Positions 3,810 to 34,746 of a stretch of 48,177 nucleotides of DNA are shown here, one piece after another. Origin of the DNA: Flavobacteriales bacterium (GTDB taxonomy: Bacteria; Bacteroidota; Bacteroidia; Flavobacteriales; BACL11); contig PAZP01000010.1 of NCBI GenBank assembly GCA_002715565.1, positions 55,033-103,209 of the forward strand, read 5' to 3'. The position numbers and the translations under genes were made by a program. The first letter of the stretch is position 1. The number at the start of each line of letters is the position of its first letter. A model generated the notes under the pieces. The model was not told where the DNA came from. It worked only from the letters and a program-made list of their open reading frames with translations, and did no database searches.

Positions 3810-4738
3810 GTAGTCAAATAACAAATACAATTTTAATGGTTAGACCTTTATCTTTTGGTTATAATGAACAAACTGCTATTAATAATTACTATCAGAAAAA
3901 CTTAAATTTAAGCTATAGAGATATACAAAGAAGAGCATTGTCTGAATTTGACAATTTTGTGATTAATTTAAAGCAAAATGGAGTAAATGTTATAGTTGTT
4001 GAAGATGTTAGTAAAGGAGAAACACCTGATTCAATTTTTCCTAATAACTGGGTTTCTTTTCATAGTAATGGAGATGTTGCTTTATATCCAATGTATGCAT
4101 TAAATAGAAGGAAGGAAAGAAGAATAGATGTATTTGATTTATTAAAAGATAAATATAATTTTCAAATTAACAAAATTATGGATTTTTCTTCTTTAGAAAA
4201 TAATGGTATATTTTTAGAAGGAACTGGAAGCATGGTATTTGATAGAAAAAATAAAATTTGTTATGCCGCTATTTCTGAAAGAACAGATAGATCTACCGTT
4301 TTAGATTTTTGCAGTCAATTTAATTATAAACCTATATTATTTACTGCAAAACAAAAAGTAGGAAAAAAAAGGTTGGAAATATATCATACAAACGTGATGA
4401 TGAGTGTTGCTGAAAGCTTTGCTATTATTTGTTTAGACTCTATTGATGATAATGAGGAAAGAAATCTAGTTGTTAATACTTTAATTAATTCAGGTAAAAA
4501 TATAATTGAAATATCTGAGAGTCAAAAAAATAATTTTGCAGGTAATATGTTACAAGTCAAGGGACATAAAGCTGTTCTTGTTATGTCAAGTACTGCTTAC
4601 AATAGTTTAAGCATAGCGCAAATAAATGATATAAAGCAGGAATGTGCAATTCTTCATAGTCCATTAAGTACTATTGAGGCATGTGGTGGCGGTAGTGCTA
4701 GATGCATGATGGCTGAGATATTTTTACCAAAAGCATAA
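3806..4738 (+). CDS. ctlX: CtlX-type citrulline utilisation hydrolase
   Basis: A 310-residue guanidino-superfamily hydrolase of the CtlX type (TIGR/NCBI family 'citrulline utilization hydrolase CtlX'). The start is taken as the ATG at 3806, because it forms an ATGA overlap with the previous stop and gives the family-typical N-terminus MSSQITNTILMVRP. An upstream TTG-type or ATG start inside the previous gene would add a non-homologous nonapeptide. Signature segments are PDSIFPNNW, LEGTGSMVFDR, His194 in IYHTNVMM, and the nucleophile-type Cys300 in GGGSARCMMAE. Family knowledge links it to arginine/citrulline breakdown, and pairing with the ADI-like gene and argS fits an arginine-handling group. 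The exact reaction is less well established than the family membership. Confidence 0.88.
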   Translation: MSSQITNTILMVRPLSFGYNEQTAINNYYQKNLNLSYRDIQRRALSEFDNFVINLKQNGVNVIVVEDVSKGETPDSIFPNNWVSFHSNGDVALYPMYALNRRKERRIDVFDLLKDKYNFQINKIMDFSSLENNGIFLEGTGSMVFDRKNKICYAAISERTDRSTVLDFCSQFNYKPILFTAKQKVGKKRLEIYHTNVMMSVAESFAIICLDSIDDNEERNLVVNTLINSGKNIIEISESQKNNFAGNMLQVKGHKAVLVMSSTAYNSLSIAQINDIKQECAILHSPLSTIEACGGGSARCMMAEIFLPKA

Positions 4739-4740
4739 AA

Positions 4741-6507
4741 ATGAAAGAAATTTTAGAAAAAGAAATATTAGATGCATTAAATGAGTTATATCAACACACA
4801 CCATCGTCTATTGATTTGCAAAAAACAAGAAAAGACTTTGAGGGAGATATTACTTTAGTGGTTTTTCCATTTTTGTCTTGCTCAAAAAAAAGTCCTGAAA
4901 AAACAGCAAATGAAATAGGAGAATATTTAATAGCAAAATCTATCAAAATAGATAAATTTAATGTTGTCAAAGGATTTTTGAATATTTCTATATCTTTTGC
5001 ATTTTGGTATAATAAATTTAAAGAAATATATAATACTCCAAATTTTGGCATCAAAAAGCCTGAGAAATATTCTCCAGTATTTTTGATTGAATATTCATCT
5101 CCAAATACAAATAAGCCTCTTCATTTAGGCCATATACGAAATATTTTGCTTGGTTATTCTATTTCTAAAATAATTAATGCTAGTGGAAAGAATGTAAAAA
5201 AAGTTCAGGTTATAAATGATAGAGGAATTCATATTTGTAAATCTATGGTTGCTTGGCAATTGTATGGTAATAATGAAACACCTAAAAGTAGTGGTTTAAA
5301 AGGAGATCATTTAGTAGGAAAATATTACGTTCTTTTTGAAAAGAAATACAGGCAAGAAGTGGATACATTAATTAATAAAGGATACCAAAAAGAAAAAGCT
5401 GAAAGGGAAGCTTCTATTTTTTTAAAAGCACAGAATATGTTATTAGAATGGGAAAGAAGAAATCCAGAAGTAATAGCATTATGGGATAAGATGAATAGCT
5501 GGGTATATGATGGATTTGAAGCAACATATGAAAGATTAGGTGTAAATTTTGATAAGGATTATTATGAGAGTAATACTTATGTTTTAGGCAAAAAAGTAGT
5601 TGAAGAAGGTTTAGAAAGAGGTGTGTTTTTTAAGAAGAAAGATGGTTCAGTATGGATTGATTTATCAAAAGAAGGTTTAGACGAGAAAATCATTTTAAGA
5701 TCTGACGGTACAGCTGTTTATATTACTCAAGATATAGGAACTGCTATTCAAAGATATATTGATTTTAGTTTTTCTAATATGGTATATACAGTAGGAAATG
5801 AACAGGATTACCATTTTAAAGTATTGTTTTTAATTTTAGAAAAGTTAGGCTACACATGGGCTAAAAAATGTTATCATTTGTCATACGGCATGGTTGATTT
5901 GCCTAGTGGTAGAATGAAATCTAGAGAAGGAACTGTAGTAGATGCGGATGATTTAATGGAAGAGATGGTTAATACTTCTACTAATATTGCTAATGATTTG
6001 GGCAAACTTGAAGGCGTGAGTAAATCAGATGCAAATATACTTTATGAGACTGTTGGTTTAGGAGCACTTAAATACTTTATATTGAAGGTTGATCCTAAGA
6101 AAAGAATGTTATTTAATCCGGATGAATCTGTTGACTTTAATGGTAATACTGGTCCATTTATTCAGTATACTTATGCAAGAATCAAATCTTTAGAAAGAAA
6201 TTATAAAAATGAAGTATTAATTCCTGAGAGTATAAATATTTTATTTTCTGAAAAAGAGATTATAAAGAAAATAAGTATGTTTCCAGAAGTTATAAATGAA
6301 TCTGCTAATAGTTTTACACCAGCTATTATTGCTAATTATGTTTACGAACTTTCTAAATTGTACAATAATTACTATCAATCGATCTCTATATTAAATGCTA
6401 AAGATTTAGATTTAATTAATTTTCGACTTTGCTTATCATTAAAGGTAGGAGAAACAATTAAAAATTCTATGAATTTACTTGGTGTTGATGTTCCTAATAG
6501 AATGTGA
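4741..6507 (+). CDS. argS: Arginyl-tRNA synthetase
   Basis: Class I synthetase that charges tRNA-Arg with arginine in the cytoplasm. The 588-residue protein has the N-terminal additional domain (about 1-100), the HIGH-type motif HLGH at residues 128-131 inside SSPNTNKPLHLGHIRN, and the KMSKS equivalent GRMKSREG near 390-397. The C-terminal anticodon-binding DALR domain includes FIQYTYARIKS. Its length is normal. It starts two bases after the ctlX stop codon, so it belongs to the same run of genes; arginine is the shared metabolite. A tRNA-Arg(ACG), one of its substrates, lies further along the window at 19150. Confidence 0.98.
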   Translation: MKEILEKEILDALNELYQHTPSSIDLQKTRKDFEGDITLVVFPFLSCSKKSPEKTANEIGEYLIAKSIKIDKFNVVKGFLNISISFAFWYNKFKEIYNTPNFGIKKPEKYSPVFLIEYSSPNTNKPLHLGHIRNILLGYSISKIINASGKNVKKVQVINDRGIHICKSMVAWQLYGNNETPKSSGLKGDHLVGKYYVLFEKKYRQEVDTLINKGYQKEKAEREASIFLKAQNMLLEWERRNPEVIALWDKMNSWVYDGFEATYERLGVNFDKDYYESNTYVLGKKVVEEGLERGVFFKKKDGSVWIDLSKEGLDEKIILRSDGTAVYITQDIGTAIQRYIDFSFSNMVYTVGNEQDYHFKVLFLILEKLGYTWAKKCYHLSYGMVDLPSGRMKSREGTVVDADDLMEEMVNTSTNIANDLGKLEGVSKSDANILYETVGLGALKYFILKVDPKKRMLFNPDESVDFNGNTGPFIQYTYARIKSLERNYKNEVLIPESINILFSEKEIIKKISMFPEVINESANSFTPAIIANYVYELSKLYNNYYQSISILNAKDLDLINFRLCLSLKVGETIKNSMNLLGVDVPNRM

Positions 6508-23184: not shown

Positions 23185-24507
23185 TTAACCTAATTCATTA
23201 AAATTAATATCACCAAAATTTCCAGAACTCATCATCAACAAGTTTTTATTTTTTAAATCAATAGACTTTAAATGTTTTTCTAATTGTTTAGAATCAGTAA
23301 ATATTAATAACTCTTTTTTGTTAAAAGAATCAAATATATCCTCTTTTTTAATCATATTTAGACCTTTATTTTTTAAAGTATCTAATGAATAATATATAAT
23401 TGCAATATTCGCATCATCCATACTTCCTTTATATTCTGCTAAAAATTTCTTATTCAAACTACTAAAAGTATGTAGTTCCATGCATGCTATTAATTGTCTA
23501 TTTTTATATTGATTTTTAACTGCCTTACAAGTTGCTTTTAGTTTTGAAGGTGAGTGTGCAAAATCTTTAAAAATTGCTGAGTCCATATTTTTTTTAATTA
23601 ACTCTAGTCTATTGGCTGCTCCTTTGAATGATGAAATATGTTTGTAAAATTCATCATGAGATATATTTAATTCTTCACATACTAATTTTGCTGCATTTAT
23701 ATTTTCTAGATTATGATCACCAAACACTTGTATTTTGTAATTATTAATATATGTTTCTCCATTAATTATTTTATGCTCATGAGTTGAATATCCTTTTTTT
23801 TGACATTTTGTTTTTTCATTCATTAATTTTATTAACTCTTGATCTTTTGAACAATAAATTAATACATCTTTAACCATATTTTTAAAAATTCTAAATTGTT
23901 CTACATAATCTTCAAAAGTTTTGAACACATTAATATGATCCCAAGCTATACCTGTTAAAACTGCAATATCTGGCTGGTATAAATGAAATTTAGGATTTTT
24001 ATTTATACAGGAACTTAAATATTCATCACCTTCTAAAATAATAATAGGAGCATCTTCGGTTAGCTTTACCATACGTTCAAAGCCTTCTATTTTTGCTCCT
24101 ACTAAATAGTCAAAATTTAAATTTAGATTTTTTAGAACATGCATAATCATTGATGTGACTGATGTTTTTCCATGACTTCCAGAAATTACAATTCGTTTTT
24201 TATTTTTGGAGTGTTTGAATATATATTCTGGAAATGAATATATAGGAAGATTTAATTCTTGCGCTTTAATTAACTCTGGATTATCTCTTTTTGCATGCAT
24301 TCCTAGTATTATAATATCTAAATCATTTGATATTTTTTTTGGATACCAACCTATTTTTTTTGGAAGTAAATCATATTTTTTCAGTCTACTTTTACTAGGT
24401 TCAAAAATTTTGTCATCTGAACCACTAATTATATGCCCTTGTTTTTGAAGTGCCAAGGCCATATTATGCATGATACTTCCTCCTATTGCTATTAAATGAA
24501 TACGCAT
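23185..24507 (-). CDS. mpl: UDP-N-acetylmuramate:L-alanyl-gamma-D-glutamyl-meso-diaminopimelate ligase
   Basis: Mur-ligase-family enzyme that joins recycled murein tripeptide to UDP-MurNAc, returning it to peptidoglycan synthesis. From the ATG at 24507 the protein has 440 residues and starts with the dinucleotide-like loop MRIHLIAIGGSIMHNMALAL. The ATP loop VISGSHGKTSVTSMI is near residue 112. Further motifs are LEGDEYLSSCINKNPKF, AWDHINVF, NINAAKLVCEEL and DFAHSPSKLKAT. The DEY and GSIMHNMA segments separate Mpl from MurC. An in-frame ATG at 24543 would add an unlikely hydrophobic dozen residues. It shows that this organism recycles its wall. It is convergent with the gene at 22890 and divergent from the metallo-hydrolase. 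Confidence 0.93.
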   Translation of the reverse strand: MRIHLIAIGGSIMHNMALALQKQGHIISGSDDKIFEPSKSRLKKYDLLPKKIGWYPKKISNDLDIIILGMHAKRDNPELIKAQELNLPIYSFPEYIFKHSKNKKRIVISGSHGKTSVTSMIMHVLKNLNLNFDYLVGAKIEGFERMVKLTEDAPIIILEGDEYLSSCINKNPKFHLYQPDIAVLTGIAWDHINVFKTFEDYVEQFRIFKNMVKDVLIYCSKDQELIKLMNEKTKCQKKGYSTHEHKIINGETYINNYKIQVFGDHNLENINAAKLVCEELNISHDEFYKHISSFKGAANRLELIKKNMDSAIFKDFAHSPSKLKATCKAVKNQYKNRQLIACMELHTFSSLNKKFLAEYKGSMDDANIAIIYYSLDTLKNKGLNMIKKEDIFDSFNKKELLIFTDSKQLEKHLKSIDLKNKNLLMMSSGNFGDINFNELG

Positions 24508-24549
24508 TAAATAAATTATAAAACTAAAGTAAAGATTAATCACATTTGT

Positions 24550-24557
24550 TATTTTTG
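24550..24557 (+). promoter_or_regulatory. Candidate -7 box upstream of the metallo-hydrolase
   Basis: TATTTTTG at 24550-24557 fits TAnnTTTG and lies 20 bases before the ATG at 24578, between this gene and the divergent mpl. No clear -33 TTTG is seen at the right distance, so confidence is modest. Confidence 0.4.
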
Positions 24558-24577
24558 AGTATTAAAATTTTACTAAC

Positions 24578-25420
24578 ATGCAATTGTATACAATAGAAAC
24601 AGGATATTTTAAATTAGATGGAGGTGCAATGTTTGGCGTTGTTCCGAAAGTATTATGGAGTAGAACAAATCCACCTGATAATAATAATTTGTGTTCTTGG
24701 GCTATGCGATCTCTTTTGATTGAGGATGGAAATAGATTAATACTTATTGATAATGGAATAGGGGATAAGCAAGATGATAATTTTTTAAAACATTATTATT
24801 TGCATGGTGATGTTAATTTGCATCAATCTCTAAAAAACCATGGATTTACAGCTGAAGATATTACTGATGTTTTTTTAACACATCTACATTTTGATCATTG
24901 TGGTGGAAGCGTAAAATGGAATGCTGATAGATCATCTTATGAAATGACATTTAAGAATGCTCGTTACTGGAGTAATAAAGATCATTGGCAATGGGCTACA
25001 CAACCTAATAATAGAGAAAAAGCTTCTTTTTTAAAAGAAAATATTCTTCCAATACAAGAAGCAGGATATTTATCATTTATTGAAAAGGAAAATAAAGAGT
25101 TTAATAATATAGATATACTTTTTGTAGATGGTCATACTGATGCACAAATGATACCTCATATTAGATATAAAGGAAAAACTATTGTTTTTATGGCTGATTT
25201 GTTACCTAGTACTGGACATATTCCTTTACCTTATGTAATGGGTTATGATACAAGACCATTATTGACATTAGATGAAAAAGGAAAATTCCTAAAACAAGCT
25301 GCTGATGAAAATTTTATCTTATATTTACAACACGACAATTATAATGAGTGTTGTACAGTTAAACATACTGAAAAGGGAGTGAGATTAGATGAAACCTTTT
25401 CATTAAGAGAAATTTTATAA
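24578..25420 (+). CDS. MBL-fold metallo-hydrolase
   Basis: A 280-residue cytoplasmic metallo-beta-lactamase-fold enzyme. The two-metal motif HxHxDH is present as THLHFDHCGG near residues 101-110, followed by the later metal ligands in VDGHTDAQMIPH, ADLLPSTGHIP and the final LQHDN. The N-terminal YKLDGGAMFG-like segment (TGYFKLDGGAMFGVVPK) and overall size resemble the lactonase-like subgroup (AiiA-type). The substrate cannot be told from sequence, and acyl-homoserine-lactone cleavage should not be assumed. The DUF6356 gene starts at the next base after its stop. Confidence 0.88.
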   Translation: MQLYTIETGYFKLDGGAMFGVVPKVLWSRTNPPDNNNLCSWAMRSLLIEDGNRLILIDNGIGDKQDDNFLKHYYLHGDVNLHQSLKNHGFTAEDITDVFLTHLHFDHCGGSVKWNADRSSYEMTFKNARYWSNKDHWQWATQPNNREKASFLKENILPIQEAGYLSFIEKENKEFNNIDILFVDGHTDAQMIPHIRYKGKTIVFMADLLPSTGHIPLPYVMGYDTRPLLTLDEKGKFLKQAADENFILYLQHDNYNECCTVKHTEKGVRLDETFSLREIL

Positions 25421-25648
25421 ATGCCCAATTTATTTACAGAACATCCTAAATCAGTAGGTGAATCATATTTTAAACATTTAATTATTGCTCTTAGTTTTAG
25501 TATTAAACTAATATTTATTGCAATAAAAGTGTTAATACATGCGTTTTTCCCTTTTTTATTTAAAAATTGTGCAAGTAGCGAAATAAATAAATTAAATTCT
25601 GTTCTTCAGCAGAGAAAGAAAGAGCCTAATGATTCAAATGTGAATTAA
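25421..25648 (+). CDS. DUF6356 family small membrane protein
   Basis: A 75-residue protein with the family opening NLFTEHPKSVGESYFKHL, one long hydrophobic stretch (about 22-50, ending HAFFPFLFKN) and a charged C-terminus. This matches DUF6356, a small membrane family of unknown role. It directly follows the metallo-hydrolase without a gap. Its last 23 bases overlap the convergent small gene at 25626-25841. Confidence 0.8.
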   Translation: MPNLFTEHPKSVGESYFKHLIIALSFSIKLIFIAIKVLIHAFFPFLFKNCASSEINKLNSVLQQRKKEPNDSNVN

Positions 25649-25841
25649 AAACATCCCAACTACTACTAAAATTTCTTGTATCGTCTATCTCTTCTTTATT
25701 ACTAGTATTTCTATATAATGTTATAGGCTTTTTATCTTTCCCAATAATTTGAATAGTTTCATAGTCATTTATATCAGCATCAATTGGTAATTTAGATTTA
25801 TAACCAATTTTTTCAAGAGATGTTTGTTGCTTTTTTGACAT
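25626..25841 (-). CDS. Small hypothetical protein (71 residues)
   Basis: An unrecognised 71-residue hydrophilic protein (start MSKKQQTSLEKIGYKSK, later YETIQIIGKDKKPITLYRN). The mixed alpha/beta composition without low complexity looks like a real small domain. A TATATTTG promoter-like box sits six bases before the ATG at 25841, which supports expression. It overlaps the tail-to-tail neighbour DUF6356 gene by 23 bases and is divergent from the radical SAM gene. Function is unknown. Confidence 0.6.
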   Translation of the reverse strand: MSKKQQTSLEKIGYKSKLPIDADINDYETIQIIGKDKKPITLYRNTSNKEEIDDTRNFSSSWDVFNSHLNH

Positions 25842-25847
25842 TTTCAC

Positions 25848-25855
25848 CAAATATA
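25848..25855 (-). promoter_or_regulatory. -7 box of the small hypothetical gene
   Basis: Read on the minus strand, TATATTTG (25855 to 25848) fits TAnnTTTG. A TTTC lies 19 bases upstream, close to the -33 TTTG consensus. The box ends six bases before the ATG, so the transcript would be leaderless or nearly so. Confidence 0.5.
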
Positions 25856-25909
25856 GTTAATCTATAATAAATACGAAAATACTAATATAAGGTTATTTAT
25901 AATTTAAGT

Positions 25910-25917
25910 TATTTTTG
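25910..25917 (+). promoter_or_regulatory. -7 box of the radical SAM gene
   Basis: TATTTTTG at 25910-25917 fits TAnnTTTG and ends six bases before the ATG at 25924. No good -33 element is seen. It implies a start of transcription at about the start codon. Confidence 0.45.
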
Positions 25918-25923
25918 CATAGC

Positions 25924-26868
25924 ATGGAGAATACTAATTCGAGATATAATGACTTTACATCTTTTATTAAAGACAAATTTAATAATAGAGTTCAAAAGGT
26001 TTCACTTGATGCAGGTTTTACTTGTCCAAATAAAGATGGAACAAAGGGAAGAGGTGGGTGTACTTATTGTAATAATAATACTTTTAACCCTGACTACTGT
26101 AAACCTATTAAACCTATACTAGTACAGATTGAAGAGGGTATAGAGTTTTTTTCAAAAAAATATAAAACACAAAAATATTTAGCTTATTTTCAAGCTTATA
26201 CTAATACGTATGCTCCATTAAATGAATTAAAGCCTATGTATGAAGAAGCTTTGTCTCATAAAGATGTTATTGGTCTTGTTATTGCTACACGCCCTGATTC
26301 CATTAAAGATGATGTGTTAGATTATCTTCAGTATTTAGCTAAAAAAGGAAATTTTATAAAACTTGAATTTGGTTTAGAATCTACAAATAACAAGACTTTA
26401 GAGGTTATTAATAGATGTCAAACGCATGAAGAAGCTATTGATACTTTTTCTAGAGCAAAGGGTAGAGGTTTACACCTTGGTGCTCATTTAATTTTAGGCC
26501 TTCCAGGAGAAAGTAAAGAGGATATGTTAAAGCACGCTATAAAGGTTTCTCAGCTTCCTGTAAATACGTTGAAAATACATCATCTTCAAATTGTGAAGCA
26601 CACTATGATGGCTTATCAGTTTAAGAATACGCCTGAGATGTTTACTTTTATGGAGCTTGATGAATATATAGACCTAGTAGTAGATTTTATTGAGCTTCTA
26701 CATCCAGATATTATTCTTGAAAGATTTTTTAGTGAATCACCAGCTAGAATGCTTATTCATCCAAAATATGGACTTAAAAATTTCGAGGTAAAGCATCTGG
26801 TTAATAAAAGACTTGAAAAAAGAGATGCTTGGCAAGGGAGACTATATAAAGAAGTTACGGTTGCTTAA
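25924..26868 (+). CDS. TIGR01212-family radical SAM protein
   Basis: A 314-residue radical SAM enzyme of the TIGR01212 (YhcC-like) family. The 4Fe-4S ligands lie in FTCPNKDGTKGRGGCTYCNN, with the CxnCxxC spacing typical of this family and unlike the usual CxxxCxxC. Further landmarks are YFQAYTNTYAPL, IATRPDSI, EFGLESTNNKTLEVINR and GAHLILGLPGES. Start ATG at 25924 is preferred over an in-frame TTG at 25915 that lies inside the promoter-like box. The family's physiological reaction is not firmly established. It stands alone between a small gene and the MORN module. Confidence 0.92.
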   Translation: MENTNSRYNDFTSFIKDKFNNRVQKVSLDAGFTCPNKDGTKGRGGCTYCNNNTFNPDYCKPIKPILVQIEEGIEFFSKKYKTQKYLAYFQAYTNTYAPLNELKPMYEEALSHKDVIGLVIATRPDSIKDDVLDYLQYLAKKGNFIKLEFGLESTNNKTLEVINRCQTHEEAIDTFSRAKGRGLHLGAHLILGLPGESKEDMLKHAIKVSQLPVNTLKIHHLQIVKHTMMAYQFKNTPEMFTFMELDEYIDLVVDFIELLHPDIILERFFSESPARMLIHPKYGLKNFEVKHLVNKRLEKRDAWQGRLYKEVTVA

Positions 26869-27041
26869 CTAAATTAACCGGATTACAACCTAACACCTAT
26901 CTCCATAATTTCAGCAAGCTTTTAAACTAAAAATTGATCCGCTTTTTGCACCGCTAATTAATCTATTTAAATTAACTGAAAAAGAATAATTGGAATCTTG
27001 ATTAGAAATTACTTTTAAAAATAATTCTATAAAAAATAATT

Positions 27042-29489
27042 TTACATTTGATAAAATTGTTCTTTATCTGGTGTATCATCCTTATGTTTTATTTTATATT
27101 TCATAGCTCCTGGTTCTAATTCAGTATCAGTATTACTTTCAGGTTTACTTTTAGCGCTAACATCTTTACTGAAATTAAATATCTCTGAAAACTTCTCAAA
27201 ATAAGATCTAACATTTTCTTTTAACTCATCACTTGCTAATTCTTCTTCAGATGAATATGGAATTTCTATGTTCATAGTTATGATAGAAGGATTTCTCTTG
27301 CCAGGTGCAGCTTTTAAAACATGCCCATCACCAATATCTTTACCATTTAAGCCCTTATCACTAAGAATACGCATAATTTCTTCAGGATCAGTTTTTACTG
27401 ATCTAAATGATAATACTACAGCTTTCTTTTGTACATGGAAATTAATTGAATAACCATCTTTTAAATCAATTCCGGCATAAGGCTTATTCTTTGGTAATTT
27501 AACAAGCGGAAATTTTTCCTTCATAAAGTTTCTAAAGGACTGAATACTATCTAAATCCTCATCGGGACTTACTTCTTCTCTTGCTTTTTCTATAGGATCT
27601 TCTTTAACTTCAATTTCTTCATAATCTGTAAGCTTCCAAATATAATTTCCTTGACAATATAATAATACTTTATTTAGTCTGTAGTCATTTCCTCCTTCAT
27701 CCTTTTTTAATTCTTCAATGTATTCTATGTCATCTGCTTCTTCAAGTAACATATCCTCTTTTCCAATAATTTTAGCTAAAGCTTCTTTATCTAGCCAATT
27801 ACATTTACCTTTGTCTTTAAGATTATTATATATTCCCTTAACGAGATCATTTTTACTTATTTCAAGAACCTGTGTCTCACCTCCAACAAGAGCATCAACC
27901 CAGTCTTCTAAATATTCGTTACAGAGATCTCTATCAAAATCAGGTTTTTCCCATTTAATAGTTTTTTCTTTATTTTCCTCCATCATCTCATTTTTTTCTT
28001 CCCCGATAACTTCTTTGTTTAGCTCTAATATATCTTTGTTTATATTGTCAGTATCATTATCTCTGTTGTTTAATTTCAAAATTTCAACTAAAAGTTCTAT
28101 AAATTCTATGTTGTCAGATTTTATAATTACCTCGCTTTCGATATCTCGCTCTTCTACTAATGCCTTTTGTAATTCATCTTTATTAGCATGTAGTATTACA
28201 AATCCTTCAAGACTATTGATTTTTAAACCATAAACCTCATCCATTCCGTAACTTAGTTCCTCATAATTTGTACAGTCACCAAATATTTCAGATGCTCTTT
28301 CAAATGAAAGGATACCGTTGTTAGTATCGTTATATTCAAACTTGTGAGATTGATATGTATTTTTTAGTTCTGTAAAAGCGTCTGTTAAATCTTTGTCTTT
28401 ATATTTCTCACAGTCTTTTAAATTAATTTCTAATCCATCAGGTGATGTTATAGTCCCATCTACTGTTCTTTGTTTGTCGTCATTGTATTTCCCATAAAAA
28501 ACAAATCCCTTTGATGAAGTATATTTACTATTTTTTATTTCTTCTATTTCATTATTGTTTTCATCAAAATCTACCATTGTCATTTTAACCCATTCACCCT
28601 CATGCCAATCACTAGTAAATTTAGCACCATCAGAATAATTATAAGTGCCTACTCCATCCTTCTTTCCATTTTCCCATTCTCCTTGCCATGAATTTCCGCT
28701 TGGCCACTTATAAATTCCTTGACCATGTTCTTCTCCCTTTTGATATTCACCTTCATACTTCCTTCCATCAGGCCAAACATAAATTCCTTTACCGTGTTTT
28801 TTATTTTTTTTAAATTCCCCTACATATACTTCGCCATCTAAGAAATCCATTTTAGCGTATCCATCAGCAAGACCGTCTTTAAAATCTCCTGTTATTACAG
28901 GGCCATCAGGTACAGTCATTACTCCTTTTCCGTGTGGAAGTCGATTACCTTCTTCTCCTTTTGCTTCCCCATGGTAAGATATACCACTTTCATATTTAAT
29001 ATATTCTCCTTTTTTTTCTTCTCCTTCAACATGCCACTCTAGACCTGTTCTTGTTAGAAGTACTTGCGCTGTAATATTTATTTCATTATCAGTAGTTACA
29101 GTTACTTTTCCAATATCAATTTTACCATCAGAGTCTTCAAAATTATTTCCTATCAAGATATCATATATTTTTTCATACCAAGTGTTTTCTTCTTTCTTAT
29201 GTGATTGGGTATATCTAAAATCAAAATGTTTATTTGGAACATTCGCAGAGAGGAATTTTAATAAATTTATTTCCCACTCATCTTTCGTGTCTTTAGAAAT
29301 ACTAACTCCATATTTTGGAAATAATGTATAAATACCATCATTATTTTTAGCAAAAAATGGTTTAGCGGAAGGTGATTGAAGTAGAATTTCAATATACTCA
29401 TTTAATTTCCATTCTAAATATTGTGATTCTGTATTTGTTAGAGTAAATGATTTTAATTCTATTAAAAGTTTTGGTTCTATTATTTCCAT
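27042..29489 (-). CDS. Large cytoplasmic MORN-repeat protein
   Basis: An 815-residue protein without signal peptide or membrane segments. The N-terminal ~165 residues are a mixed domain. Six or seven MORN repeats occupy about 168-320, for example EYQKGEEHGQGIYKWPSG and EFKKNKKHGKGIYVWPDG. A middle part (about 320-520) is acidic. A C-terminal half includes WLDKEALAKIIGKED, and near 690-790 a compact domain with GIDLKDGYSINFHVQKK, AAPGKRNPSIITMNI and YFEKFSEIFNF. MORN repeats often mediate lipid or protein contacts, but in bacteria they frequently occur in uncharacterised proteins. It shares one base (TAATG) with the upstream gene, so the pair is coupled. I do not recognise the N- or C-terminal domains. 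Confidence 0.85.
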   Translation of the reverse strand: MEIIEPKLLIELKSFTLTNTESQYLEWKLNEYIEILLQSPSAKPFFAKNNDGIYTLFPKYGVSISKDTKDEWEINLLKFLSANVPNKHFDFRYTQSHKKEENTWYEKIYDILIGNNFEDSDGKIDIGKVTVTTDNEINITAQVLLTRTGLEWHVEGEEKKGEYIKYESGISYHGEAKGEEGNRLPHGKGVMTVPDGPVITGDFKDGLADGYAKMDFLDGEVYVGEFKKNKKHGKGIYVWPDGRKYEGEYQKGEEHGQGIYKWPSGNSWQGEWENGKKDGVGTYNYSDGAKFTSDWHEGEWVKMTMVDFDENNNEIEEIKNSKYTSSKGFVFYGKYNDDKQRTVDGTITSPDGLEINLKDCEKYKDKDLTDAFTELKNTYQSHKFEYNDTNNGILSFERASEIFGDCTNYEELSYGMDEVYGLKINSLEGFVILHANKDELQKALVEERDIESEVIIKSDNIEFIELLVEILKLNNRDNDTDNINKDILELNKEVIGEEKNEMMEENKEKTIKWEKPDFDRDLCNEYLEDWVDALVGGETQVLEISKNDLVKGIYNNLKDKGKCNWLDKEALAKIIGKEDMLLEEADDIEYIEELKKDEGGNDYRLNKVLLYCQGNYIWKLTDYEEIEVKEDPIEKAREEVSPDEDLDSIQSFRNFMKEKFPLVKLPKNKPYAGIDLKDGYSINFHVQKKAVVLSFRSVKTDPEEIMRILSDKGLNGKDIGDGHVLKAAPGKRNPSIITMNIEIPYSSEEELASDELKENVRSYFEKFSEIFNFSKDVSAKSKPESNTDTELEPGAMKYKIKHKDDTPDKEQFYQM

Positions 29490-30172
29490 TATTTCTCCTT
29501 GTTTATTTTATGCATTAATTCTTTAAAATCTTTATCATATGGCACCATCTTGGAATCTTGAATCATATGATCATTTAAGTCAATTATTTTAATCGTATTC
29601 TCTTTATTTGATTGTTTTTGTTTATACCTAAATTCCTGCATGAAATCGATAAATTTTTTACCCTCTAATTCTTTCTTATCACCTAAAAAGTTTATTTTAA
29701 AATCATCATTTATTTCATTCCATTTTGTAAATGATGTTTTATTTTTTTTTGGTATGTTTTTATCTTCTTTTGTTGTAATTATTACTGATTTAGAATAGGA
29801 ATTAATAATCTCGTATATTTGATGAATACTAGTATTTTCTTTTAGACATTTTTCTATTTTTTCTTTTATCATAATTCTTGGAACTGCATGCTCATGCCTA
29901 AGGTTTTTACACGCTTTAAGTCCTTTTCCCTCTAATGGGTTTAATTGGCAGTAATATTTAATTGCATTTTCTGACCAATACCTTTGGCCAACATACTTTA
30001 TGTTAATTAGTTTTTCATCATCTTTAATTATAGTTGTAGCATGCCATAATAATTGATCTATAGTTAGGTTAAAGAAGTGATCTGACACATTATCATTCTC
30101 ACGATTATTATATGTTTCAAAAATAAATTTTGCTATTCTTCCTTTCCAGCTTTTCTCCCAATTATTATCCAT
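29489..30172 (-). CDS. Uncharacterised protein with an RHEHAVP motif, partner of the MORN protein
   Basis: A 227-residue cytoplasmic protein that I do not recognise. It is mostly helical and strongly charged. A central segment, ACKNLRHEHAVPRIMIKEKI, has a His-Glu-His cluster next to a cysteine, and a later segment reads KSVIITTKEDKNIP. Such HEH clusters can bind metal and occur in some HNH-like nucleases, but this is a weak hint only. Start ATG at 30172 is chosen because it follows a well-formed promoter by 23 bases; a TTG at 30238 would place the start codon above the promoter. Its stop overlaps the MORN gene's ATG, indicating a two-gene operon. Confidence 0.75.
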   Translation of the reverse strand: MDNNWEKSWKGRIAKFIFETYNNRENDNVSDHFFNLTIDQLLWHATTIIKDDEKLINIKYVGQRYWSENAIKYYCQLNPLEGKGLKACKNLRHEHAVPRIMIKEKIEKCLKENTSIHQIYEIINSYSKSVIITTKEDKNIPKKNKTSFTKWNEINDDFKINFLGDKKELEGKKFIDFMQEFRYKQKQSNKENTIKIIDLNDHMIQDSKMVPYDKDFKELMHKINKEK

Positions 30173-30195
30173 AAATTTTAATTTATTATATACAT

Positions 30196-30226
30196 CAAAT
30201 GTAATTAATTTTATATTATTGACAAA
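30196..30226 (-). promoter_or_regulatory. Promoter of the MORN module (full -33/-7 match)
   Basis: On the minus strand, TTTG (30226 to 30223) and TACATTTG (30203 to 30196) are separated by 19 bases, an excellent fit to the Bacteroidota TTTG-N19-TAnnTTTG consensus. The ATG of the first module gene is 23 bases further on. The DUF805 gene starts in the opposite direction at 30238. Confidence 0.65.
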
Positions 30227-30237
30227 AATATAATTCA

Positions 30238-30834
30238 ATGGATAATTTTATTGCTGTATTAAAAAAATACTCAGATTTTGAATCATCATCATCAAGGAAA
30301 GAATATTGGATGTTTGTATTATTTAACATTGTATTTTCTAGTCTAGCATCTATAATTAGTCCTAAAATTTCTATGCTGTATTCACTATTTATTTTTATAC
30401 CAGCTCTTGCTGTAACTGTTAGAAGGCTACATGATGTTGGAAAGAGTGGATGGATGCTATTGATTGTTTTTATTCCACTTATAGGACCTATATGGTTACT
30501 TGTTCTTTTGTTACAGAAAGGAGTTTCCTTTAATGAATTTTTTACAAATGATGATTCATATAAGTATACAGAAAAAAAACAAGAACGACCATCAGAAGAA
30601 AAAAAATCTTGTTGTTCTAATGATGATTCAGAAGATGTAGTAAATGAATCAGTTAAAGATGAAAGCAACAATAAACAACAAGTAAATTCAGATGATTCAG
30701 AAGAAATAGATGATGAAATGATAGAATATAAACTTGATGATGGAACTATCAAGAAAATGAAAAAAACTCATGCAGCTATTTTACCTAAATCTCATCCTGC
30801 AAGAAAAGCTTATGATGAAATAAACTCTAATTAA
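30238..30834 (+). CDS. DUF805 membrane protein with acidic tail
   Basis: A 198-residue protein. The N-terminal DUF805 domain (about 1-95) has the conserved FESSSSRKEYWMF opening, three hydrophobic segments and the signature VRRLHDVGKSGWMLLI. The C-terminal ~100 residues are soluble, Asp/Glu/Ser/Asn-rich, with a CC pair (KKSCCSNDD), and end in a basic-tempered segment (IKKMKKTHAAILPKSHPARK). DUF805 has no settled function. It precedes ettA by eight bases and is probably co-transcribed with it. Confidence 0.88.
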   Translation: MDNFIAVLKKYSDFESSSSRKEYWMFVLFNIVFSSLASIISPKISMLYSLFIFIPALAVTVRRLHDVGKSGWMLLIVFIPLIGPIWLLVLLLQKGVSFNEFFTNDDSYKYTEKKQERPSEEKKSCCSNDDSEDVVNESVKDESNNKQQVNSDDSEEIDDEMIEYKLDDGTIKKMKKTHAAILPKSHPARKAYDEINSN

Positions 30835-30842
30835 TATTTAAT

Positions 30843-32534
30843 ATGTCGGAAGATAAAAAAGTAATATTCTCTATGTCAGGACTTTCTAAGTCCTTTAATA
30901 ATAACAATAAGCAAGTTTTAAAAGATATATATCTTTCTTTTTTCTACGGAGCTAAGATTGGTATAATTGGATTAAATGGATCAGGAAAGTCTACACTTCT
31001 AAAAATTATTGCTGGTGTAGATAAAGCTTATCAAGGTGATGTGGTATTCTCTGATGGCTATAATGTTGGATATTTAGAACAAGAGCCTAAACTTGATGAT
31101 GACAAGACCGTAATGGAAATTGTTAAAGAAGGAATGCAGGAGGCAGTAGATGTGCTGGCAGAATATAATGCTATTAATGATGCATTTGGATTACCGGAAA
31201 ATTATGAAGATGCAGATAAGATGGATTCATTAATGAAACAGCAGGGGCTTTTACAAGATAAAATAGAAGCCTTAGGAGCTTGGGATATTGAAACCAAGTT
31301 AAATATAGCTATGGATGCGCTTCGTTGCCCTGAAGCAGATACTAAGATATCAGTTTTATCGGGGGGCGAGAAAAGAAGAGTTGCTCTTTGTCGTTTATTG
31401 CTACAAGAACCAGATATATTATTGCTTGATGAACCTACTAACCACTTGGATGCAGAATCTGTTTTATGGTTAGAACAACATCTTTCACAATACAAAGGAA
31501 CTATTATTGCTATTACGCATGATAGATATTTTCTAGATAATGTAGCTGGCTGGATATTAGAGCTTGATAGAGGAGAAGGAATACCATGGAAAGGAAATTA
31601 CTCTTCTTGGCTAGAACAAAAGACAAAGAGGTTAGCACAAGAAGAAAAAACAGAAAGTAAGAGAAAGAAGACACTAGAAAGAGAATTAGAATGGGTAAGG
31701 ATGTCACCAAAGGGTAGGAGAACAAAATCAAAGTCTAGATTAAGTAATTATGAAAAATTATTATCAGAAGAAGGCAAGCAGAAAGAAGAAAAAATAGAGT
31801 TATATATCCCTCCGGGACCTAGATTAGGAAATAATGTAATTGATGCTGAGGGGGTAAGCAAGGCATTTGGGGATAAGTTACTTTATGAGAACTTAGAATT
31901 TAAATTGCCTCCTGCTGGTATTGTTGGAATTGTTGGTCCCAATGGAGCTGGAAAAACCACTTTATTTAGGATGATTATGGGGAAAGAAACTGCTGATAAA
32001 GGAACATTTGAGATAGGGGAGACAGTGAAGCTTTCATATGTTGACCAGCAGCATGTAGATATAGATCCAAATAAAACAATTTGGGAACAAATTACTGATG
32101 GTCAAGAGGAAATAAATTTAGGCGGTAGATATGTAAATTCTAGAGCCTATGTTGCCAAGTATAATTTTAATGGTTCTGATCAAAATAAAAAGGTAGGTGT
32201 TTTGTCTGGAGGTGAGAGAAATAGATTGCACCTAGCAATGACATTAAAGAATGAAGCTAATGTATTATTGCTTGATGAACCAACGAATGATCTGGATGTT
32301 AATACATTAAGAGCTTTGGAAGAAGGTTTAGAAAATTTTGCAGGGTGTGCTGTTATTATTTCACATGACAGATGGTTTTTGGATAGGGTTTGCACACATA
32401 TTTTAGCATTTGAAGGTGATTCAAAAGTTGTTTACTTTGAAGGTTCTTTTTCTGATTATGAAGAAAACAGAAGGAAAAGACTTGGAGATATTTCACCTAA
32501 AAGGATTAAATATAGAAAGCTAATAAGGGATTAG
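30843..32534 (+). CDS. ettA: ABC-F protein EttA (energy-dependent translational throttle)
   Basis: A soluble ABC-F ATPase that binds the ribosomal E site and gates early elongation according to ATP/ADP ratio. The 563-residue length is standard. The first ATPase domain has GLNGSGKST, VLSGGEKRRVALC and LLLDEPTNHLD. The linker (P-site tRNA interaction motif) lies around 240-310 and is rich in Lys/Arg. The second domain has GPNGAGKTT, VLSGGERNRLHLAM and LLLDEPTNDLD. The C-terminal SDYEENRRKRLG segment is typical of EttA rather than Uup. There are no membrane segments. It ends directly against the stop codon of the convergent LptF/G gene. Confidence 0.95.
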   Translation: MSEDKKVIFSMSGLSKSFNNNNKQVLKDIYLSFFYGAKIGIIGLNGSGKSTLLKIIAGVDKAYQGDVVFSDGYNVGYLEQEPKLDDDKTVMEIVKEGMQEAVDVLAEYNAINDAFGLPENYEDADKMDSLMKQQGLLQDKIEALGAWDIETKLNIAMDALRCPEADTKISVLSGGEKRRVALCRLLLQEPDILLLDEPTNHLDAESVLWLEQHLSQYKGTIIAITHDRYFLDNVAGWILELDRGEGIPWKGNYSSWLEQKTKRLAQEEKTESKRKKTLERELEWVRMSPKGRRTKSKSRLSNYEKLLSEEGKQKEEKIELYIPPGPRLGNNVIDAEGVSKAFGDKLLYENLEFKLPPAGIVGIVGPNGAGKTTLFRMIMGKETADKGTFEIGETVKLSYVDQQHVDIDPNKTIWEQITDGQEEINLGGRYVNSRAYVAKYNFNGSDQNKKVGVLSGGERNRLHLAMTLKNEANVLLLDEPTNDLDVNTLRALEEGLENFAGCAVIISHDRWFLDRVCTHILAFEGDSKVVYFEGSFSDYEENRRKRLGDISPKRIKYRKLIRD

Positions 32535-33611
32535 TTATTTTGGAGCTTTTTTAACAAGAAATACAGCAACTATTGTAAATAATATATTTGGTATCCACAC
32601 TGATAATGCTGGATTTAAACTACTTTTTATTGCAAAGGTTGTTGATATCTGCATAAATAAAATAAAAGAAAAAGCAATTAATATTCCAAGACCTAAATGT
32701 AATCCTATACCTCCTCTTACTTTTCTTGAAGCAATACTAACAGCAATAATTGTTAAAATTATAGATGCAAATGGAAATGCTATTCTTTTATGTTTTTCGA
32801 TTTTATGATAAACAATTTGTGGAGTTCCTTTAAGACTTTCTTTTACAATATATTTGTTTAATTCAGCATACTTCATTGTTTCAACTAATTTAATTTGATT
32901 TTGAAAATCATCAGGTTTTAAGTCAATTATGGTATCTAATTTTCGTCCATTATTTAATACTTCTCGATCATCGTAGAAAATTCTAGTTGTATAATTATTT
33001 AGTTCCCATGAATTGCTTATAGAATCATACTTAATATAGTCTGAATTTAATGTTGACATCAACTTATTTTTATTAAAGTTATCTAATCTAAATTTATATC
33101 CAATTTCTCTATTTATATTGAAACTTTCCATATATATATATTGATCTTTTGCAATCTGCATATGAATTTCTTTGTTTAATACATATCTTTTTTTTGATAT
33201 ATATTTATTTTCAAAATCAATCCTATGTTTATTAGATCCAGGTATAATAAAATTTCCTAAAAAGAAAGAGCAGATAGATAAAATAATTGAACAAATAATA
33301 AAAGGTCTTAAGTATTGATAAAAGCTTAATCCACTATTTGTCATAGCAATTATCTCAGTGTTGTTTGCTAATTTTGATGTAAAAAATATTACTGATAGAA
33401 ATATAAATAATGGGCTAAAAAGATTTCCAAAATATGGGATGAAATGAATATAGTATTCAGTAATAATTATTTTAACACTTAAATTATTTTCTAAAAAATC
33501 ATCTATTTTTTCTGAAATATCAAATACAATAACTATTAATAAGACTAGAGATAAAGTGAAAAAGAAAGTGCTAAAAAATTTTTTAGTTATATACCAGTCA
33601 AACTTTTTCAT
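32535..33611 (-). CDS. LptF/LptG-family permease (YjgP/YjgQ)
   Basis: An inner-membrane subunit of the LptB2FG transporter, which extracts lipopolysaccharide from the inner membrane and feeds it to the periplasmic bridge. The 358-residue protein opens with the typical KFDWYITKKFFSTFFFTLSL. It has about six membrane helices in two groups (about 15-110 and 270-355) around a periplasmic beta-jellyroll domain. The late segment HKRIAFPFASIILTIIAVSI is the conserved family motif. Whether it is LptF or LptG is not certain. It follows tgt by four bases in one operon, an order I know from other Bacteroidota. Confidence 0.92.
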   Translation of the reverse strand: MKKFDWYITKKFFSTFFFTLSLVLLIVIVFDISEKIDDFLENNLSVKIIITEYYIHFIPYFGNLFSPLFIFLSVIFFTSKLANNTEIIAMTNSGLSFYQYLRPFIICSIILSICSFFLGNFIIPGSNKHRIDFENKYISKKRYVLNKEIHMQIAKDQYIYMESFNINREIGYKFRLDNFNKNKLMSTLNSDYIKYDSISNSWELNNYTTRIFYDDREVLNNGRKLDTIIDLKPDDFQNQIKLVETMKYAELNKYIVKESLKGTPQIVYHKIEKHKRIAFPFASIILTIIAVSIASRKVRGGIGLHLGLGILIAFSFILFMQISTTFAIKSSLNPALSVWIPNILFTIVAVFLVKKAPK

Positions 33612-33615
33612 AAAA

Positions 33616-34746
33616 CTAAAGTCTTTTATTTAATTTTTTTATCAATTTGTTTTTCCATGATTGAAATGTTTCATTTTGTATATTTTTTCTAGCTTCTTCC
33701 ATTAACCAAATATAAAAACGAATATTGTGTAATGTGGCAATTTGTTTACCTAACATTTCATTTGCAGTAAATAGGTGACGTAAGTAGGCTTTAGTATATT
33801 TCTGATCTACAAAAGACGTTCCATTAGCGTCAATTGCACTAAAATCTGCTGACCATTTTTTATTTTTAATATTGATAGTTCCTTCTGAAGTGAATAACAT
33901 GCCGTTTCTAGCGTTTCTTGTTGGCATAACACAGTCAAACATATCTACACCCAATGCTATGTTTTCTAATAGGTTTTGTGGTGTTCCTACCCCCATTAGA
34001 TATCTAGGTTTTTCCCACGGAAGTATTGAACATACAATTTCAGTCATTTCATACATTATTTCATCTGGCTCCCCCACTGATAAACCTCCAATTGCATTGC
34101 CTTCTCTATTAAAACTTGCAATTTTTTCAGCCGATTGCTTTCTTAAATCTTTGTATGAGCTTCCCTGAATAATTGGAAAAAATGTTTGGTTATAACCATA
34201 TTTGTTAGATGAATTATCAAATCTATCACAACACCTTTTCAGCCATCTATGAGTGAGATGCATAGAGCTTTTAGCATATTTATGATCACAAGGATATGGA
34301 GGGCATTCATCAAAAGCCATTATGATATCAGCTCCTATATCTCTTTGAATATCAATTGCGTTTTCTGGTTTAAAAAAATGATAGCTTCCATCAATATGTG
34401 ATTGAAATTTAACTCCATCTTCAGTTATTTTTCTATTATTTGATAGAGAATATACTTGATATCCACCACTATCTGTTAGTATAGGTTTTTCCCAGCTTAT
34501 AAATTTATGAATACCACCTGCTTCTTTAATAGTATCAATTCCAGGTCTTAAATATAAATGATAAGTGTTTCCTAAAATAATTTCTGCTTTGGTATCTTCT
34601 TTCAGCTGATTCTGTTGTACTCCCTTAACAGTTCCTAATGTACCTACTGGCATAAATATGGGAGTGTTTATTTTTCCATGATCAGTTTCAATACAACCTA
34701 TTCTTGCTTTAGAATCTTTATCTTGATGTAATACTTTAAATTTCAT
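33616..34746 (-). CDS. tgt: tRNA-guanine transglycosylase lacking the zinc cysteines
   Basis: Exchanges guanine 34 for preQ1 in tRNAs with GUN anticodons on the way to queuosine. From the ATG at 34746 the protein has 376 residues. The catalytic aspartates sit in ILTDSGGYQVYSL and in GVDMFDCVMPTRNARNG. Substrate-pocket segments AFDECPPYP and GGLSVGEP are present. The usual zinc site CxCxxC is replaced: the aligned stretch reads DANGTSFVDQKYTKAYLRHL, while the downstream His (ATLHNIRFY) remains. A GTG at 34752 is in frame but lies inside the promoter box, so the ATG is chosen. First gene of an operon with LptF/G; divergent from rnpB. Confidence 0.96.
   Translation of the reverse strand: MKFKVLHQDKDSKARIGCIETDHGKINTPIFMPVGTLGTVKGVQQNQLKEDTKAEIILGNTYHLYLRPGIDTIKEAGGIHKFISWEKPILTDSGGYQVYSLSNNRKITEDGVKFQSHIDGSYHFFKPENAIDIQRDIGADIIMAFDECPPYPCDHKYAKSSMHLTHRWLKRCCDRFDNSSNKYGYNQTFFPIIQGSSYKDLRKQSAEKIASFNREGNAIGGLSVGEPDEIMYEMTEIVCSILPWEKPRYLMGVGTPQNLLENIALGVDMFDCVMPTRNARNGMLFTSEGTINIKNKKWSADFSAIDANGTSFVDQKYTKAYLRHLFTANEMLGKQIATLHNIRFYIWLMEEARKNIQNETFQSWKNKLIKKLNKRL

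Follow-up and report, generated by a model that had tools for sequence, protein, structure and literature searches.

A gene pair encoding an EHxVP protein and a MORN-repeat protein, very probably an accessory module, at a conserved site in Flavobacteriales

The closest described proteins and the layout of the pair

The GmrSD type IV restriction system contains a DUF1524 HNH nuclease, GmrD, whose first motif is given as (E/D)H(I/L/V)xPQ (PMC4619093). The small protein encoded by gene A of the locus described here recalls this arrangement, as in both a first motif of the form (E/D)H..P is followed by a later hydrophobic strand and then by a ligand residue; it differs from GmrD in that the first motif reads EHAVPR, the second motifs of the two differ, and there is neither a DUF262 partner nor a Pfam match. 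A is also comparable to small phage and prophage proteins that carry an EHxVP...TKEE(D/N) pattern (loci L064, L083/L084, L088 and L089). These share with A the EHxVP motif, a probably helical stretch and a hydrophobic strand-like stretch, which ends in TKEED or TKEEN in the phage and prophage group and in TTKED in A, and they are of similar size (162-190 aa in complete members, 227 in A). However, their identity to A is low, A has a longer C-terminal part, and the RYxxVGI ending of the group is not clearly present in A, which reads FRYKQKQ at this point. No gene resembling B, the second gene of the pair, was seen among the ORFs listed for L064, L088 and L089 (the latter two listed in part). 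B encodes a MORN protein (PF02493) in which the recognized repeats are confined to the middle of the chain. A phage family to which no function is assigned, PHROG 7324, matches B residues 122-351 (E 1.3e-16), which corresponds to the MORN repeats and little on either side, leaving the rest of B uncovered. The MORN protein TbMORN1 of T. brucei forms extended dimers and interacts with individual phospholipids, with no membrane or vesicle binding reported (PMC7725318), and on this showing MORN repeats should not be read as reliable lipid or membrane binders. A bacterial MORN defence pair is not reported in the open-licence literature that was searched, though one may be described elsewhere.

The window (the whole 48,177-nucleotide stretch of DNA that was analyzed) belongs to a 1.37 Mb genome that is 81% complete in 38 contigs and, judging by its gene content and the kind of MAG, probably of marine origin. 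Both genes of the pair have the positions and lengths given in a preliminary description of this DNA. A (29489..30172, minus strand) encodes a basic protein of 227 aa (pI 9.04), and B (27042..29489, minus strand) an acidic protein of 815 aa with MORN repeats (pI 4.73). The two overlap in the sequence TAATG (29487..29491, minus strand), where TAA ends A and ATG starts B at 29489, and an AAGGAG sequence lies directly upstream; this arrangement would allow translational coupling of the two genes. Both proteins are strongly hydrophilic, as had been noted for B (GRAVY -0.93 for A and -0.83 for B, as compared to -0.51 to +0.23 in the seven neighboring genes measured), and neither contains a transmembrane-like 19-residue stretch.

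Sequences that could control expression of the pair were sought around it. TTTG-N19-TAnnTTTG is the Bacteroidota promoter consensus, and its sole exact match in the window, TTTG-N19-TACATTTG at 30226-30196 on the minus strand (feature 30196..30226), ends 23 bases before the A start codon. The preliminary description had called this the best promoter in the window. The match exists, but dinucleotide shuffles of the window contain a mean of 0.91 such matches, which places it at chance level on sequence alone; it is plausibly placed directly ahead of A, but that is all that can be said for it. In the alignment to the related genome NAT55 (see below), the first box of this match carries a change. 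Within 26700-31000 there is no terminator-like site and sigma-70-like matches occur at chance counts, and Rfam has 0 matches in 24000-34000.

The pair is flanked by two genes that mark a site conserved among relatives, a radical-SAM gene identified by Pfam (25915..26868, plus strand) and a gene read from its sequence as ABC-F (30843..32534, plus strand). Divergently from A lies a gene for a DUF805 membrane protein with a hydrophilic C-terminal tail, assigned by Pfam and hydropathy (30238..30834, plus strand), which is the sole membrane protein nearby and may be a third gene of the module. A DUF805 match at E up to 1e-5 occurs in 9 of 52 family genomes, and only the source genome and NAT55 have the full-length protein with its tail. 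In NAT55 the DUF805 frame is open despite a broken A and the absence of B, so this protein has no need of A and B. Judged by the first residues of the longer ORFs, the other neighbors in the window appear to be housekeeping genes; in the same 48-kb survey no defence island was seen, which counts against a defence function, and no integrase or phage gene was seen either.

Sequence relatives of the two proteins

No Pfam, NCBIfam or PADLOC family was recognized in A, the best matches (E 0.16 and 0.0095) being chance-level and far under the cut-offs. Curated HNH and DUF1524 models of Pfam and NCBIfam did not match A at E up to 1, PADLOC returned 0 families for either A or B at E up to 1, and a PDB sequence search with A gave nothing. 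An AlphaFold2 model of A built without an alignment has a mean pLDDT of 37.7 and is unusable for judging a beta-beta-alpha metal fold of the HNH/His-Me finger type. The RHEHAVP cluster pointed out in the preliminary description is present in A, and it fits the wider EHxVP...TKEE pattern of phage and prophage proteins. This pattern was found at 21 loci, six of which (L064, L072, L073, L076, L077 and L079) share a near-identical protein, whole or cut, and the other 15 were rejected, as their motif falls within a short frame or, in L066 and L080, within a long GC-rich one judged to be chance. In the phage contig L064 the protein stands beside genes read as gp46/47-like and DNA-polymerase-like. 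A second pattern gave 3 loci: L083 and L084, both of which fit, and the non-fitting L082. An alignment scan confirmed 4 loci: L086 and L087 (which are L083 and L084 again), L088 and the prophage-like L089. A first, degenerate pattern of the RHEHAVP stretch had given 8 viral loci, none of them a relative on reading.

Profiles built from these proteins recover A. A four-sequence phage/prophage profile scores A at 22.6 bits, whereas 500 shuffles reach at most 9.6 and no other ORF among 2211 exceeds 9.2, and a three-sequence profile run against 257 phylum genomes at E up to 0.01 matched A alone (2.1e-5). Because the seeds had been picked on A's own motifs, by patterns taken from A, this match is partly circular, and shuffle tests were run for that reason. 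With a five-member profile A scores 27.1 bits, a value reached by 0 of 2000 motif-keeping shuffles (best 19.2); when both motifs are masked, the score is 7.5 bits and 1 of 2000 shuffles is as high. With fewer seeds the masked comparison is weaker or fails. For L088, L088b, L083 and L089 together, 2 of 2000 masked shuffles reach A (motif-kept, 0/2000); the numbers are 459/2000 for L088 and L089 (motif-kept, 0/2000), 54/2000 for L089 alone (motif-kept, 1/2000) and 4/2000 for L064 alone (motif-kept, 1/2000). With L088 as the only seed, 1688 of 2000 masked shuffles reach A, and even unmasked A scores only 1.2 bits, which 65 of 2000 motif-kept shuffles attain. Kinship of A to the EHxVP...TKEE proteins is therefore best described as likely but not secure.

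The layout of the group, in which EHxVP is followed by an intervening stretch and a strand-like segment with TKE(E)N/D, recalls the motifs of GmrD, and it is for this reason that a nuclease is guessed at for A; the pattern recalls HNH-type nucleases without proving the relationship. Members of the group need not be catalytic, since a Photobacterium protein related to the one in L089 (33% over 93%) lacks both motifs. In the viral contig L088, adjacent genes (3830-4402 and 4427-4864) carry EHLIP and EHQYP, followed by TKEEN and TKTEN, respectively, a possible tandem duplication. In the prophage-like contig L089 (3842-5835), an EHVVP protein, a 165-aa protein of unknown kind and an FRG-domain protein stand in a row; the FRG protein, encoded two genes downstream of the EHVVP gene, matches PDC-S15, a candidate defence model of PADLOC (E 1.2e-36).

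B matches the Pfam MORN model PF02493 in three stretches (E 7.3e-22, 76.3 bits against a cut-off of 22.5), its DNA holds three copies of the repeat at 69-nt spacing, and no other Pfam model matches at cut-off. With limits set by eye, B comprises an orphan N-terminal region (residues ~1-160), the MORN region (~160-305), a domain here called C1 (~515-620) and an orphan C-terminal region (~645-775). The N- and C-terminal domains had been described as unrecognized, and indeed no Pfam, NCBIfam or PADLOC family matches either region. Nor did searches that included Pfam, NCBIfam and PDB sequences link the C-terminal part with any known housekeeping enzyme; the only PDB sequence matched by the C-terminal 302 residues was PARP2, at chance level. 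Structure prediction of B gave a mean pLDDT of 33.6 and is unusable.

Outside the repeats, relatives were found for the C1 domain only (stretch 27549..27950, minus strand). In genome G013 C1 is related to a stand-alone protein of 141 aa (40% over 89 residues, E 1.3e-9), and probably also to a stand-alone 99-aa protein in G099 (E 7.8e-5). The G013 gene lies near a contig end (L004:1381-2644), close to a frame read as T5orf172/GIY-YIG-like. Of 386 order genomes, 7 matched a C1 alignment (E up to 0.01); besides the source genome, the matches in G013 and G099 look real, and four others have E 0.0038-0.0081. The C-terminal 302 residues of B are found in 2 of 100 relatives (the source genome and G013), and a search of the 52 family genomes with the C-terminal 485 residues (E up to 0.1) gave three: the source genome, G013 in part, and G023 (E 0.057). 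Searches of viral contigs gave nothing for the N-terminal 160 or the C-terminal 302 residues and no confirmed match for the C1 alignment, and plasmids gave nothing for the C-terminal 302 residues. Among phages, whole B matched one record, in the MORN region only (35.5% over residues 198-273).

Occurrence, probable exchange and loss of the pair

An intact A-B pair was found nowhere else among relatives, family, phylum and order genomes, genome contigs, plasmids and viral contigs. The sole other copy of A that was found is a pseudogene in the MAG 'Flavobacteriales bacterium isolate NAT55', which is treated here as one genome with G014 of our relatives set, and the same deletion took B. A was detected in 2 of 100 relatives at E up to 0.001 (the source genome and G014), in 1 of 395 phylum genomes (the source genome itself) and, in genome contigs, at the single NAT55 locus. 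Among 395 order genomes, 46 gave a match at E up to 1, with only the source genome and G014 below 0.007; the weak loci L007, L009 and L018 were judged chance after their ORFs had been listed. In viral contigs 18 stretches fit a pattern and 0 were confirmed. Phages and plasmids gave no match to A even at E up to 10, a result oddly empty for that limit and of little weight, and PHROG 786, a weak match of A (E 0.26), was uninformative, with 0/60 genomes and 0/14 controls.

The distribution of the flanking genes shows where the pair is missing. Radical SAM is present in 34 and ABC-F in 38 of the 52 family genomes, the source genome included; 31 have both, on the same contig in 27 and on separate contigs in G007, G008, G019 and G028. 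Family genomes are often incomplete, but the site itself is seen in all 27 single-contig cases. The gap between the two genes measures 21-257 bp in 24 of these, 684 bp in G009, 1226 bp in G014 and 3977 bp in the source genome, so that 25 of the 27 gaps (21-684 bp) leave no room for the A+B pair. In 20 of these 25 small-gap genomes the sequenced stretches were examined; tblastn found no DUF805 there, and the gaps contain small genes at most. The presence of A here and in G014 only, with relatives mostly lacking the pair or keeping remnants of it, agrees with the preliminary description, which saw no link to nearby housekeeping genes, and an accessory module is well supported.

The gap in G009 (L034, G009:C2:937500-941100) holds a different small gene, read as GIY-YIG-like, and the site may therefore take other insertions. 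In L036, L037, L039-L042, L044, L045 and L048-L051, gaps of ~205-260 bp have a conserved stretch in common which, on the minus strand, resembles a short membrane protein of ~50-60 residues; it was not seen in the gap of the source genome.

The module has left a remnant in NAT55 and probably one in G024. In NAT55, DUF805 is retained together with ~145 codons from the start of A, interrupted by an in-frame TAA at codon 19; positions equivalent to 29728 and 26887 of the window are just 71 bp apart, so that B is missing entirely, along with the 3' third of A. Over 144 codons, A of the source genome differs from that of NAT55 by 4 synonymous, 8 nonsynonymous and 1 nonsense changes, too few to judge selection. 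In G024, 93 bp of the 149-bp gap (L035:1905-1997) are 82% identical to window positions 30172-30264 (E 3e-21), that is, to the stretch between A and DUF805 and the first DUF805 codons. Since this scar includes the start of DUF805, loss of the module is the likeliest explanation for it, ahead of an older portion of the site that later received the genes.

The DNA identity of the source genome to NAT55 is uneven: 97.0% over 432 bp of A, 86% in DUF805, 85% in radical SAM and 81% in ABC-F, as compared to 76% in Tgt, 70% in LptF, 77% in the MBL-fold gene and 74% in the Mpl-like gene (the latter over aligned parts only). Binned at 150 bp, identity peaks around A (0.93-0.99), is still 0.88-0.93 over the 3' part of radical SAM and lies mostly at 0.64-0.86 in the remaining bins; DUF805 includes a dip to 0.73, and at 30750-30899 identity climbs again to 0.94. 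As a pseudogene should not change more slowly than the functional genes beside it, recombination is the simplest explanation, and the locus has probably been exchanged through its flanks and lost in some lineages. We thus regard A and B as very probably an accessory module that is exchanged and often lost.

Possible functions of the module

What the module does can be stated far more tentatively. A partnership of the two proteins beyond the overlap of their genes is something we infer from the operon. In the explanation that we favor, A and B form an accessory operon, perhaps together with the divergent DUF805 gene, that is set between two conserved genes, passes between related marine Flavobacteriales through recombination in its flanks and is easily lost. 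A would act as a small, metal-dependent effector of nuclease-like type, taking its catalytic base and metal ligands from the EHxVP and (T)TKED motifs in the manner of HNH/His-Me finger enzymes. The acidic B would act as a MORN scaffold that binds the basic A and keeps it inactive, with its orphan end domains releasing or targeting A upon infection, and the outcome would be anti-phage or abortive-infection activity. Such an anti-phage or abortive-infection module, in which B holds a nuclease-like A, is possible, and we put it forward tentatively. The preliminary description had thought a membrane-sensing or defence-type module possible. Its membrane-sensing half gains no support, as neither A nor B has a transmembrane segment and MORN repeats are unreliable lipid binders (PMC7725318). 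The defence-type half gains some weight from the likeness of A to phage and prophage proteins and from the proximity of the L089 gene to the PDC-S15 match; no PADLOC model applies, and it is unproved.

The small basic A, the large acidic B and their overlapping genes would also suit a toxin-antitoxin or addiction-like pair in which B neutralizes a toxic, nuclease-like A and which is maintained by addiction rather than for phage defence. The loss of B in NAT55 accompanies inactivation of A, as expected if A alone were harmful, although a single deletion could have produced both losses. An antitoxin of 815 aa would be unusual, and B, which matches PF02493 MORN, gave no match to antitoxin models (E up to 1); we consider this explanation unlikely. 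A comparably low probability is given to the pair being cargo derived from a phage or mobile element that brings no benefit to the host and has been decaying since its acquisition. Proteins like A do occur in phage and prophage-like contigs, and decay is evident in NAT55 and G024, but no direct repeat of at least 14 nt brackets the pair within 25800-31000, no integrase or phage gene was seen among the longer ORFs of the window, and B is still an intact 815-codon frame in the source genome.

Quite unlikely, in our judgment, is a cellular (envelope or cytoskeletal) module with B as a structural MORN scaffold, DUF805 as its membrane partner and A as a non-catalytic adaptor. Its absence or decay in close relatives argues against it, as does the open DUF805 frame beside the broken A/B genes of NAT55, which shows no need of A or B; on the other side, DUF805 lies divergently beside A and is full length with its tail only where A or its remnant occurs, and the extended dimers of TbMORN1, with no membrane binding found (PMC7725318), would suit a scaffold. 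The anti-phage reading can also be extended to DUF805, giving a three-gene immune system expressed from one divergent promoter region, which we hold to be very unlikely. It would combine a membrane protein whose tail is cytoplasmic with a multi-domain MORN sensor-scaffold and a nuclease effector of the EHxVP type; this combination is absent from the family libraries searched.

If the anti-phage reading is confirmed, it would associate a bacterial MORN protein with an effector and would suggest a function for the unnamed small EHxVP proteins of phages and prophages. The locus itself, with its intact, broken, scar and empty-site states, is a natural series in which the gain and loss of a module can be followed in small marine genomes.
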